NCBI RefSeq assembly: GCF_016887565.1
Contig: NZ_CP069396.1
Span: 10,336,001 to 10,400,000, forward strand
Source: Archangium violaceum
GTDB lineage: Bacteria; Myxococcota; Myxococcia; Myxococcales; Myxococcaceae
Length of the DNA: 64,000 nucleotides
Direction of reading: 5' to 3'
In this document: piece after piece, positions 27,088-31,930 of the stretch
Layout of the letters: each line of letters starts with the position of its first letter
How positions within the stretch are numbered: the stretch's first letter is position 1
The notes under the pieces: model-generated
Database searches by the model: none
Seen by the model: the letters and a program-made list of their open reading frames with translations, nothing else
Told to the model about the DNA's origin: nothing
Made by a program: the position numbers and the translations under genes

Positions 27088-28038
27088 CTACGGGAACGTC
27101 ACACCCTCGAAGAACTCGCTCCTGGCGCTGCCATCTTCCCCGCGCAACTCGAGGGTGAAGATTCCTCGTGCCTCTCTCGCCGTCGCCTCCACCTCCACCA
27201 CGACGAGGCGCTTCTCTCCCGGCGGGATGGGCTCTCGCGACCACACGCCAGGAGCCTTCAACTCCACGTGCTCGGGGCCCGTCAGCACCGCACCCGCGGG
27301 CCGCCAGGGCGTCTGCCCTATGTTCCTCAGTTCCATCCGCACGGCCAGCCGCACCACCTTCAGCGCCCCCTCCACACGCTCGGTGTCGGAGCGGTAGCTG
27401 TAAGCCTGCGCACTCCTGAGCGTGCTACCTGGACGTGCGGTGACGTCTCTGGAGATGTCCTTGGAAACAATGCCCCCCGTGCCCATGAGCCCTTTGTCGA
27501 TGAGAACCGTGAGCCCCACCCGATCGCCGCACTCCGCCAGGAGCCGTGCCTTCTCTTCCTGGCACTGCTGGACTTCCGCTCGTGCCTGCTGCTCGCCCTC
27601 CCGGTAGGACAAGAGCGTGCGTGGATGGCGTGTCACCTCCACCTGCCGCTGGGCCTGGGTGGGGTGCACCACCAGTTCGAGGGTGGCGTTCATGGGGGCC
27701 GCTTCGTCCAGGAAGTAGACCGTCACTGGCACGCGCTCCCCAACCGCCAGCGCCTCCGTGGGAATGAGCGTGAGCGCATTCTCTCCTTGCAACACCACGC
27801 GGAACCACCGCTCCCGCCCGGCCAGTTCCACACGCCCCAACTGTGAGTCGAAGACCAGTGTGGTGGACAGTCCCGGATGGATGCACACCTCACCCGCCTT
27901 GCCTGGAGCATCCGCCATCAGCTCGATGTGGAGCGTGCCCACCTCGCAAACGGGAAGCGGAGTCCGTGAGGCGATATCGACGGGTGGTGCGGTGAGCAGC
28001 ACGAGCCCCAGCAGGGCAACAGATGACAGGGCGAACAC
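27088..28038 (-). CDS. DUF2381 family secreted protein
   Basis: This 316-residue protein belongs to a family expanded in myxobacteria (DUF2381, a Myxococcus paralogous family) whose function is unknown. It has an N-terminal signal peptide (about 1-20), beta-rich domains (about 30-140 and 190-315) and a central Glu/Gln/Arg helix (about 145-175) suited to a coiled coil. GTG 28038 follows GGAGG at ten bases. It lies 117 bases downstream of a Ser/Thr kinase gene on the same strand, probably in one operon. A second DUF2381 gene lies on the other side of that kinase. The family recurrently sits next to such kinases, so it may be a periplasmic sensor or partner. Confidence 0.8.
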   Translation of the reverse strand: MFALSSVALLGLVLLTAPPVDIASRTPLPVCEVGTLHIELMADAPGKAGEVCIHPGLSTTLVFDSQLGRVELAGRERWFRVVLQGENALTLIPTEALAVGERVPVTVYFLDEAAPMNATLELVVHPTQAQRQVEVTRHPRTLLSYREGEQQARAEVQQCQEEKARLLAECGDRVGLTVLIDKGLMGTGGIVSKDISRDVTARPGSTLRSAQAYSYRSDTERVEGALKVVRLAVRMELRNIGQTPWRPAGAVLTGPEHVELKAPGVWSREPIPPGEKRLVVVEVEATAREARGIFTLELRGEDGSARSEFFEGVTFP

Positions 28039-28155: not shown

Positions 28156-29892
28156 CTATTCGAAGCGGTCCACCACCCTGAGCCGTGCGACAGGGTCGAC
28201 CAGGATGATCCCCGACCCGCTGCCGGGCCTGAGTTCCAGGCCGACATTGTCACCTGTATCCAGCAGCTCCAGGCACACCTTGTACGTCTCCCCATTGGGC
28301 GTATGGGCCTCGGTGAAGCGGCCGTACACACGCCCCTCCCCGATGTAGAGCCTCCCGGAGATGCGGGTTTCGTCCGGCAATGCGAGCTGGCCCGAGGGCG
28401 TCCTCCAGTGGCCGGGTACGAAGACCGGAGTGTCTTCACGCACGGGAACGGACCTGCCCCGCACCAGGGACCATTCGACGGATGAGATCTCTCCAACACG
28501 CAGACCGAGCATGCGGGTCATGGTGTCCACGGCTCCGGCGGGACACTCCTGGGGAGGAGGCAGCGGGCGCATTGGAGGCACCTGCTGCTGTGCGCTCATG
28601 CAGGCCTGAAGGGCGGCGCCGGTGAGGCCAAGGCACGCGTTGCGCGCGGCGGCTCCCAGGTCCGAGGGCCGCGTTTCCCGCTGGGGGCCGGTCGTCTTCT
28701 GCTTCTTCACGGGGGCACTGTCCTTTCGGGGCGCCGCCGACGGGGCGACGGCCGCGGAGGTGGACTCCTCCAGAGGCGGAGCCGCGGCCCGTGCAGATTC
28801 CGGCCCCGGCCCCGGGGGCGCCACTTCCTGGCCAGCACTGGCTTCCCGCGTTGGAGACCCGGCGCGCGACACACCGGGTGGGGAGCGCGCGAGCCACCAG
28901 CCTCCCAGCGCCAGTCCCAACCCCACGCCCGCCCAGGCCACACGCCGCGACGCCCCGCGCGCCCGCCGCTCGCCGGCCGCGCGTGCCCTCTCGCGCAGTG
29001 GCACCTTCCAAGACTCGTCCGCCCGGGACCTCACCGCCTCCAACGCCTCGCACAGCGCCACGGCACCCGGGTAGCGCGCCTCGGGCGTCTTCTCCAACAG
29101 CCGCAGACACACCTCTTCCACCACCCGAGGCACTCGCGGGTTGACGATGTGCGGTGGCAAGGGCGCCCGGTGCAGCACGGCCTCCATGTCCACCCTCCCC
29201 TCCGCATCGACCCGGAAGGGGTCCCGCCCCGTCAGCAGCCGGTAGAGCACCACCCCCACCGCGTACAGGTCATCCCCCGGCCCGGCCCGGTAGTGCACGC
29301 CCTTCACTCCCGCGTTCTCCTCGCCGAAGCGCCACGCCTCGGGGCTGCGGTACTGGGGCGTGCCCGGGGGAAACAGGCCCTGGGTGATGGTGGGCGCCCG
29401 CGCGTAGTAGCCCACCCCGAAGTCCAACAGCACCGCCTGCCCGTCACGCTCGCGCACCAGGATGTTGGCTTCCTTCACGTCTCGGTGCACCACCTGCGCC
29501 TCGTGCACCACCGCCAGCGCACGCGCCACCTCCAGCACCCTGTCCACCACCCAGCACGAGTCCACGTCGTGCTCCCAGGCGTACACGTCCAGCGGCTGCC
29601 CCTCCACCAACTCCAGCTTCAGCCAGACGAAGCGGGGCTCCGTGTCGGGCCACTGACCAGCGCCCAGCTGGCGCACGAGGTTGGGATGCCGCAGGCGCGC
29701 CCCGATGGTGGCTTCGCGCCAGGCGCGCTCCTCACACTCAGCCAGGGGCATCATCTTGAGGGCGGAGCGGTAGCCCTCGGGGCCACGCACCCGGTACACG
29801 ATTCCAAAGCCGCCCGCCCCCAGCACGCCCTCCACCACGTCGGCGCCGATGCGCGTGCCCGGGGGCAGCGGTGGCGTCTCGAGCGCATTCAT
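28156..29892 (-). CDS. Transmembrane Ser/Thr protein kinase
   Basis: This 578-residue protein has a kinase domain (about 12-285) with glycine loop GAGGFGIVY, catalytic HRDVKEANIL (Glu replaces the usual Pro of HRDxKPxN) and DFGVGYY. A transmembrane helix lies near 325-345 (VAWAGVGLGLALGGWWLA). A Pro/Ala/Ser linker and a C-terminal extracytoplasmic domain (about 430-578) containing several cysteines follow. ATG 29892 has GGAGG four bases upstream; the frame extends 28 codons further but lacks a site. It is the first gene of a kinase-DUF2381 operon and is divergent from another DUF2381 gene, a layout common in myxobacteria. Confidence 0.88.
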   Translation of the reverse strand: MNALETPPLPPGTRIGADVVEGVLGAGGFGIVYRVRGPEGYRSALKMMPLAECEERAWREATIGARLRHPNLVRQLGAGQWPDTEPRFVWLKLELVEGQPLDVYAWEHDVDSCWVVDRVLEVARALAVVHEAQVVHRDVKEANILVRERDGQAVLLDFGVGYYARAPTITQGLFPPGTPQYRSPEAWRFGEENAGVKGVHYRAGPGDDLYAVGVVLYRLLTGRDPFRVDAEGRVDMEAVLHRAPLPPHIVNPRVPRVVEEVCLRLLEKTPEARYPGAVALCEALEAVRSRADESWKVPLRERARAAGERRARGASRRVAWAGVGLGLALGGWWLARSPPGVSRAGSPTREASAGQEVAPPGPGPESARAAAPPLEESTSAAVAPSAAPRKDSAPVKKQKTTGPQRETRPSDLGAAARNACLGLTGAALQACMSAQQQVPPMRPLPPPQECPAGAVDTMTRMLGLRVGEISSVEWSLVRGRSVPVREDTPVFVPGHWRTPSGQLALPDETRISGRLYIGEGRVYGRFTEAHTPNGETYKVCLELLDTGDNVGLELRPGSGSGIILVDPVARLRVVDRFE

Positions 29893-30035
29893 GGCGCCTC
29901 CGCACGAAGCGGGTGGCCCGCGCGCGAGCCGGAAGAGTTGGATGTCCAGGGAAGGAGATGCATGACGGGCGGACACCCTACCACTTCCGCGGTTGGATTC
30001 GTGACGTGACTTTTCAGATATGCTAGGGAATCGTC

Positions 30036-31076
30036 ATGCTCATGAATCCATCTCCTCGCATCCTCCGCGCCGCCCTCCTGCTCCCACTGCTGACGACCCT
30101 GCTGCTGACCACCGGTCCGGCTCTGGCCATCACCCAGCTGCCAGAGGGATGGAAGCCGGAGGTGCGCGAGCTGAACCTCCACGAGAATCCCCCCGCCGCG
30201 CAGAAGGAGGTCCGCGTGACGGAGGGAGTCCTGACGAGCCTCGAGGTCGATGACCCGCTCGACCTGGAGCGGACCACCCTCACGGGAGCCAGGGGGCGCA
30301 TCCAGATGAGTCAGCAGGGGCGGTATCTGCTGCTGCTCGATGTCACGGGCAGCCTGGAGCCCGGCGAGCGGCTGCCCTTGTCCGTGGCCTTCGAGGACGG
30401 CTCACGCGTGGAGCTGACCCTGGTGCGCGGCCATCAAGCGGGCGACATCCGAATCAAGCTCCACCGGCGCCCACCTCCCTCGCCGGAGGAGTCGAAGAAC
30501 ATGCTGGCGAAAACCCTGGCGGATTTCGCCCTGGACTACGAGGCGGACATCCTGAGCCAGGGTCGTCTCGACTGCGAGCCCCAGGAGCAGGAGACGCCAC
30601 GGATTGGAGCCGAGCCAGGGACGGTCGTCTACCATTGCAAGCCTGTCTCCACGTGCGGGCCGCCGAAGATGCCGTCCTTCCTCCACCGCCGTGAGCCCAT
30701 GGGGAAGCTGACCATCAATGGAGTGGAATCTGGCGGCATCGCATTGGGGATGCTGGCCAACAGCGTGGCCTATCAATCGAGCATACAGACAGTGCTGATC
30801 GTGTCCATGTTCAACGTGGACACGAAGCATCACTGGCGTCTGGGCGAGCACGCGCTGCGGCGGGAGGCCACCGGAGAGACAGTGCCCCTGCGCTTCGTCC
30901 GGGCGGCCGTCGCCGAGGATGGAGAGAACTCCAGCCCCTACGGGTTGATGGCGTTCGTGATCGACACGCCGCCCTCCCCTACCGAGCGCTTCGTGCTGGA
31001 GGCGCTCGAGAAGGACGGCGGCTCGCGCCGCATCCGCGTGGAAGGCATCACGTTCGAGCCGCCCACCAGGCCCTGA
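30036..31076 (+). CDS. DUF2381-like secreted protein
   Basis: This 346-residue protein has a clear signal peptide (about 1-31, ending ALA) and the same layout as the DUF2381 protein at 27088: a beta-rich N-terminal domain, a charged helix (about 150-175) and a beta-rich C-terminal domain ending in IRVEGITFEPP. An extra Cys-containing segment lies near 185-215. ATG 30036 follows AGGGA. It is divergent from the kinase gene, 143 bases away. With the other DUF2381 gene it brackets the kinase, so the three may form one signalling unit. The function is unknown. Confidence 0.7.
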   Translation: MLMNPSPRILRAALLLPLLTTLLLTTGPALAITQLPEGWKPEVRELNLHENPPAAQKEVRVTEGVLTSLEVDDPLDLERTTLTGARGRIQMSQQGRYLLLLDVTGSLEPGERLPLSVAFEDGSRVELTLVRGHQAGDIRIKLHRRPPPSPEESKNMLAKTLADFALDYEADILSQGRLDCEPQEQETPRIGAEPGTVVYHCKPVSTCGPPKMPSFLHRREPMGKLTINGVESGGIALGMLANSVAYQSSIQTVLIVSMFNVDTKHHWRLGEHALRREATGETVPLRFVRAAVAEDGENSSPYGLMAFVIDTPPSPTERFVLEALEKDGGSRRIRVEGITFEPPTRP

Positions 31077-31159: not shown

Positions 31160-31852
31160 TCACCGCCGACGATGCGCCAGGGCCACCTGGGCCAGCTTCA
31201 GCATCCGCCGGCGGTCGGCCTCCGACAGCTCGAAGCGCTCGAGCTCGGCCGCCACCCCCTCCAGCTTCAACTGGCCGTCGACACATGCGTTGAGCCACAT
31301 CGCGACGGTGGAGTCCTCGAACTCGCGCTCGCTGTAGGCGCTGAACTCGCGCATCAGGTCCGTGTACCGGCGGAGGTAGTACTTCTGGTGGTAGTCCTCG
31401 GCCCGGTAGAACGTGGCCAGCGGCAGGATGGGAAGGAGCAGGGGCCCGCTCCTTCCCGCCATGGCCTGCCGCGCGGTCGCGAACGCCCACCGCTTCTGCG
31501 ACTCGTCGGCGTAGAAGATGGCGGCCATGTACTGGCGGCTGTAGGGCCGCTCGGTGGGATCCGCGTCCTTCCAGAAAGCGCCCAGCAACGTCTCATAGGA
31601 GATCCGCGCCGGGTCGTAGTCGATCTGCAAGGACTCCGTGTGGTCCCCGAGCCGCTCATAGATCGGAGCCGGCTGGGAGCCGCCGGTGTAGCCCACGCGG
31701 GTGCGGATGACTCCAGGTAGACGCCCGAACCGGGCGTCAGGGCCCCAGAATCAACTCAACGCGAGGGTGGCCGTCTCCACGCGGGTGGGAGCCATTGCGT
31801 CCACGGGCAGGAGCCGGGTGGCGGGAGCTTCGGCGTTCGGGGCTGGCTTCAT
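31160..31852 (-). CDS. msrA: Peptide-methionine sulfoxide reductase MsrA, probable selenoprotein (UGA at the catalytic Cys codon)
   Basis: MsrA reduces methionine-S-sulfoxide in proteins. Translation from ATG 31852, with a perfect GGAGGAA site, gives 33 residues ending ATLALS, then TGA (31753-31751), then FWGPDARFGRLPGVIRTRVG. This is the MsrA active site (S/G-C-F-W-G) with UGA exactly where the catalytic Cys belongs. The rest is intact to the stop at 31160: GYTGG, GDHTES, QYMAAIFY, YHQKYYLRR, and one Cys (NACVDG) that could act as resolving Cys. A hairpin just after the UGA suits a bacterial SECIS. Read through, the protein is 230 residues with Sec34. The alternative is a Cys-to-stop pseudogene; damaged genes do lie nearby. 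No selA, selB or selC is in the window. Confidence 0.75.
31720..31738 (-). promoter_or_regulatory. Candidate SECIS hairpin in the msrA mRNA
   Basis: On the minus strand GACGCCCG (31738-31731), loop GTT, and CGGGCGTC (31727-31720) form a perfect 8-bp stem inside the reading frame. It begins 12 bases after the UGA, placing the loop G 20 bases downstream. Bacterial SECIS elements have their apical loop about 16-37 bases after the UGA with a G at the start of the loop, and this fits both. I do not see the bulged U of the E. coli fdhF element. Confidence 0.55.
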
Positions 31853-31930
31853 GGCGTTTCCTCCACCTGCTTCTACGGATGAACCCGGCTCGAGGTTACA
31901 TTTGTTCCTCACCTCGCCACGGATGAGCAC

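Follow-up and report, generated by a model that had tools for sequence, protein, structure and literature searches.

A predicted selenocysteine-containing methionine sulfoxide reductase A of the CoMsrA type in the myxobacterium Archangium violaceum

CoMsrA is a selenocysteine (Sec)-containing methionine sulfoxide reductase A (MsrA) from the strict anaerobic clostridium Clostridium/Alkaliphilus oremlandii, and its structure has been solved (PDB 4LWJ and others). Its C-terminal helical domain is essential (PMC4333827), Sec confers a 20-fold higher activity than Cys, and glutaredoxin serves to recycle the enzyme (PMC4333827, PMC4479559). Enzymes of this type are characterized by reduction through glutaredoxin rather than thioredoxin and by activity on methionine-S-sulfoxide. 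A Sec-MsrA is also listed for Syntrophobacter fumaroxidans, an anaerobe with 31 selenoproteins (PMC1794560); here the comparison is with that listing, and the organism's lineage was at the time grouped with the myxobacteria in the Deltaproteobacteria. Classical MsrAs, including those of E. coli and M. tuberculosis, use Cys as the catalytic residue.

Bacterial Sec insertion is directed by a SECIS hairpin past the UGA codon. The published bSECIS model describes an apical loop of 3-9 nt with a G in its first two positions, a stem of 4-16 bp, a distance of 16-37 nt from the UGA, and a minimum free energy of -7.5 or lower (PMC13188914). The locus described here lies in a 64,000-nucleotide stretch of the Archangium violaceum genome (the window), and its features are collected in Table 1.

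Table 1. Coordinates of the msrA locus and of related features elsewhere in the genome
Feature	Position	Strand	Details
msrA selenoprotein gene	31160..31852	-	230 residues, predicted Sec at residue 34; translation, Pfam PMSR 6.8e-36
msrA protein domains			catalytic, ~residues 24-161; C-terminal helical, ~residues 162-230
UGA codon 34	31751..31753	-	putative Sec at catalytic position (SUFWG)
Bacterial SECIS element	31708..31753	-	46 nt including UGA; lower stem UGAUUCUGGG/CCUGGAGUCA plus 8-bp upper stem; -27.9 kcal/mol, z -4.6
SECIS upper stem	31720..31738	-	GACGCCCG/CGGGCGUC; apical loop GUU 31728-31730, loop G 20 nt past UGA
Ribosome-binding site	31860..31864	-	GGAGG, seven bases before the msrA ATG
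Shortened ORF	31160..31696	-	178 aa, GTG start, without catalytic residue; mechanical ORF list
Putative ECF-sigma-like promoter motif	31874..31899	-	GTAACC-N16-CGTA, conserved
DUF2381 protein	27088-28038	-	
Ser/Thr protein kinase	28156-29976	-	adjoins the DUF2381 gene
DUF2381-like ORF	30036-31076	+	
selD	C1:9518168-9519094 (locus L204:567-1619)	-	UGA in CAGUAAK
Candidate selC island	C1:5182909-5205071 (loci L202, L203)		~22 kb, identical 92-bp direct repeats at its ends
Recombinase-like ORF in selC island	L202:614-1357		
DUF2381-like ORF in selC island	L202:4811-5605		

Reading frame and protein family of msrA

The msrA frame consists of 33 codons, an in-frame TGA at codon 34 (LS-U-FWGPDARFG), 196 further codons, and a terminal TGA. 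The in-frame TGA occupies the catalytic Cys slot of the MsrA motif GCFWG, and the same codon is TGA in all five other copies found in the family. The GGAGG ribosome-binding site also precedes the msrA genes of close relatives. An earlier note on this DNA had claimed a UGA at the catalytic Cys, a good ribosome site, and an intact 196-codon downstream frame, all of which are borne out by the translation and the comparison with relatives. Its expectation that routine annotation would shorten the gene also proved correct: the only ORF that a mechanical list gives for the region is the 178-aa one. The recoded reading rescues an active site that ordinary gene annotation drops.

The Archangium protein scores 124 bits against Pfam PMSR (PF01625; cut-off 23.7) and carries the motif SUFWG. 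Against the NCBIfam equivalog domain TIGR00401 it reaches 102.5 bits, below the curated cut-off of 108.1, so its assignment to the CoMsrA type rests on Pfam, the solved structures, and the fold. Among solved structures, its best matches are without exception C. oremlandii Sec-MsrA, aligned at full length over residues 25-227 with an E-value of 1e-45 and ~39% identity. In an AlphaFold2 model (pLDDT 94, pTM 0.88), 203 residues superimpose on 4LWJ at 2.2-2.3 A with a VIA Z-score of 26.6, whereas classical MsrAs align over about 140-145 residues with Z-scores near 17 (best 17.8). Helices span residues 164-229 of the model, and the longer alignment with 4LWJ points to a C-terminal helical domain.

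CoMsrA and the Archangium protein have in common a catalytic Sec, which is predicted for the latter, a short active-site loop, the C-terminal helical domain, and a full-length match in sequence and fold. They differ in host, one a strict anaerobic clostridium and the other a myxobacterium, whose lifestyle is judged here from its taxon, and in a cysteine, C190, which CoMsrA lacks. Classical Cys MsrAs, including the two encoded elsewhere in the same genome (L055 and L056), share the catalytic-domain fold and a GCFWG-like motif but have a catalytic Cys, the longer loop RQGNDVGTQY, and no helical domain. The protein is therefore of a kind already known, a Sec-MsrA of the CoMsrA type, here in myxobacteria.

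An MsrA-fold selenoprotein could instead act mainly on another substrate, such as free methionine sulfoxide or a different oxidized compound. Such a specialization would suit a third MsrA paralog beside two Cys enzymes, a score just under the TIGR00401 cut-off, and a loop five residues shorter than RQGNDVGTQY of the genome's Cys MsrAs. However, the nearest relative of solved structure, CoMsrA, acts as a peptide-methionine sulfoxide reductase with the same helical domain (PMC4479559), and it aligns without gaps in the shortened loop. A different main substrate is accordingly considered improbable, and peptide-methionine (S)-sulfoxide reductase remains the preferred reading of the activity.

SECIS element and conservation of the UGA codon

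The 48-nt stretch that begins at the UGA folds into a nearly complete hairpin of -27.9 kcal/mol, and none of 200 dinucleotide shuffles is as stable. The upper stem is formed by GACGCCCG-GTT-CGGGCGTC, which starts 12 bases past the UGA. The earlier note had described this 8-bp stem, its GTT loop, and the 20 bases between the UGA and the loop G, and both the sequence and the fold agree with that description. The fold is larger than the note saw, as the UGA and its adjoining bases pair with CCUGGAGUCA in a lower stem. The note had also called for a bacterial SECIS search: loop, stem length, spacing, and stability all fit the bSECIS model (PMC13188914). An Rfam search at E-values up to 1 gave no match.

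Comparison across relatives adds evidence for the structure. Among the TGA-bearing sequences, 80% of cells in the upper stem are paired, versus 72% in shuffled alignments and 22-58% in versions slid along the sequence. Both sides of a pair have changed in 55 cells, against 20.8 in shuffles, and the compensatory changes in the upper stem include UA replaced by GC at columns 19/31 and GC by AU at columns 23/27. The covariation score of 0.239 exceeds that of every slid version and the shuffled value of 0.111, and none of 500 shuffles scores as high. Kinship inflates counts of double changes, yet the slid controls retain this kinship and score far lower. In the six sequences with Cys, pairing at the same stem positions drops to 35% of cells, double changes are absent, and the stem is broken. 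The presence of the hairpin with TGA and its absence with Cys is direct evidence for a SECIS element.

The hairpin is nearly invariant in the five closest copies. Within it, 8 of 11 amino-acid-invariant codons are identical in five close relatives compared with 56 of 102 elsewhere, a difference in synonymous-site conservation that is not significant (p = 0.21). Support from covariation therefore rests on the wider set.

To build that wider set, 85,000 species genomes were scanned, and 80 more relatives came from Nitrospirota, Chloroflexota, Planctomycetota, Bacillota, desulfobacteria, and other groups. Across 87 sequences from many phyla, the catalytic codon is TGA in 81, TGT in three, and TGC in three, and it specifies solely Sec or Cys. 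The set does not mirror natural proportions, since its sequences were picked for their similarity to members with UGA, which probably enriches it for Sec forms. The frame past the UGA is open in all sister genomes, and dN/dS values of 0.26-0.57 indicate purifying selection. One match with a single TGA (G095) was rejected as a Sec form, as it is a classical Cys MsrA with the TGA elsewhere.

These comparisons bear on the simplest alternative, in which a Cys codon (TGC or TGT) became TGA by mutation or sequencing error and msrA is dead. A lone stop in an otherwise intact frame has the look of a fresh nonsense mutation, and the two ordinary Cys MsrA genes could serve as back-up. However, the same TGA recurs across several genera and phyla, in genomes independent of one another, the downstream frame is under purifying selection, and a covarying hairpin accompanies the TGA and is gone with Cys. 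The earlier note had named inactivating changes in sister strains as evidence against a selenoprotein, and none were seen; the relatives it proposed for alignment retain the UGA with its hairpin or carry Cys without one. A pseudogene or sequencing error was rejected as having a negligible chance of being correct, and a Sec codon remains the reading of the in-frame TGA.

Selenocysteine apparatus and gene neighborhood

The genome, a single 13.2-Mb contig, contains a complete Sec apparatus, and all four genes for which the earlier note had suggested a search were found. The tRNA-Sec gene selC has the anticodon TCA, and selA and selB score 575 bits (cut-off 268) and 328 bits (cut-off 242), respectively. 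SelD scores 379 bits, and its own UGA makes selD itself a selenoprotein gene. Family-wide, tRNA-Sec is present in 83 of 92 genomes and SelA in 84 of 92, which makes Sec decoding an old trait of the family.

The UGA could conceivably be read through or suppressed with another amino acid, independently of selenium, or could serve purely as a regulatory selenium sensor. Decoding of UGA needs a selenium supply, so expression will track selenium, as a regulatory role would have it. Against this stand the full Sec apparatus with its UGA-containing SelD, a SECIS that fits the published bacterial model (PMC13188914), and the position of the UGA at the catalytic residue, where Cys is the sole replacement in relatives. 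Selenium-free readthrough or a purely regulatory UGA is thus highly improbable, and the active-site residue of MsrA is almost certainly selenocysteine, as judged from sequence and its conservation.

The selC gene is itself associated with a stretch that looks, from its sequence, like an island integrated in selC. The bounding repeats correspond to most of selC, and the native 5′ end of the tRNA is absent from the lower copy. One ORF in this stretch resembles, by eye, the N-terminal region of a tyrosine recombinase and is interrupted by IS21-like istA/istB. The island also contains a DUF2381-like ORF, a member of a family of unknown function that occurs in the window as well.

The neighbors of msrA encode a DUF2381 protein, a DUF218 protein, a short-chain dehydrogenase, and a LysR regulator. 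Comparison of the flanks with five other family loci found no common neighbor, save one short and probably spurious stretch in L052. The msrA gene therefore has no operon partner and stands alone.

Upstream of five msrA copies (that of the window and L019-L022) is the motif GTAACC-N16-CGTA, in a region that otherwise aligns poorly. It occurs once in the window, where none is expected; genome-wide, its 5 sites compare with 4 for a reversed control, and no regulon emerges. The motif resembles GTAACC-N16-CGAA, recognized by sigma-F, an ECF factor of Caulobacter (PMC3511200). The title of a reference cited in that paper places msrAB of Neisseria gonorrhoeae under the control of an ECF factor. By analogy, it is reasonable to suppose that an ECF factor might place msrA under stress control. 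This promoter-like motif and C190 are small novelties that serve as leads only.

Catalysis, recycling, and distribution

It is very probable, from the sequence comparisons and the predicted fold, that msrA encodes a CoMsrA-type, Sec-containing peptide-methionine (S)-sulfoxide reductase, with SelB- and hairpin-driven Sec insertion at residue 34. Conservation of the TGA, the covarying SECIS, the Sec apparatus, and downstream purifying selection all support the earlier note's proposal of a selenoprotein MsrA. In the proposed mechanism, SelB would bind the hairpin directly past the UGA and carry Sec-tRNA to the ribosome, and Sec would be inserted at residue 34. The selenolate would then attack the sulfoxide of oxidized methionine, aided by Glu73 (equivalent to CoMsrA Glu55), and methionine would be released.

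The Archangium protein has no canonical resolving cysteine, so recycling probably occurs through glutaredoxin/glutathione, as in CoMsrA, or via C190. Both this glutaredoxin route and a gain in activity from Sec over Cys are expected by analogy with CoMsrA. C190, the one non-catalytic Cys, lies in the helical domain and is kept in four of six family copies; its presence means that the protein is not a strict 1-Cys MsrA, in which the catalytic Cys/Sec is the only such residue. It is hypothesized, as a doubtful but conceivable extension, that C190 is the resolving residue and forms a selenenylsulfide with Sec34, which would mean that the helical domain, once a structural brace, has become part of a redox relay, and that an ECF sigma switch acts through GTAACC-N16-CGTA in these large-genome myxobacteria.

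Many other homologs have no further Cys or end in a C-terminal CPL or CPV tail. Such Cys-Pro tails end the MsrA of L057, L062, L065, L066, L068, L074, L076, L097, L110, L112, L134, and others, and are missing from the Archangium protein. The tail Cys may be the resolving Cys for Sec in these relatives.

Sec-msrA is present in six of 96 family genomes, and each copy contains a single TGA, always at this shared codon; the remaining genomes have ordinary Cys MsrA only, or none. A tree of all 87 sequences groups the five closest family copies in a single clade (support 99), with no supported deeper placement of that clade or of L023 and L090 relative to it. Horizontal transfer of Sec-msrA is possible from this sequence pattern. 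In the literature collection searched, no paper brought selenoprotein, MsrA, and myxobacteria together.

With this gene, myxobacteria join the organisms with a CoMsrA-type Sec-MsrA. The 81 Sec and six Cys sequences provide a clean natural contrast for SECIS requirements in the MsrA family. The patchy presence of the gene, despite near-universal tRNA-Sec and SelA, offers a case of selenoprotein gain and loss within one family.
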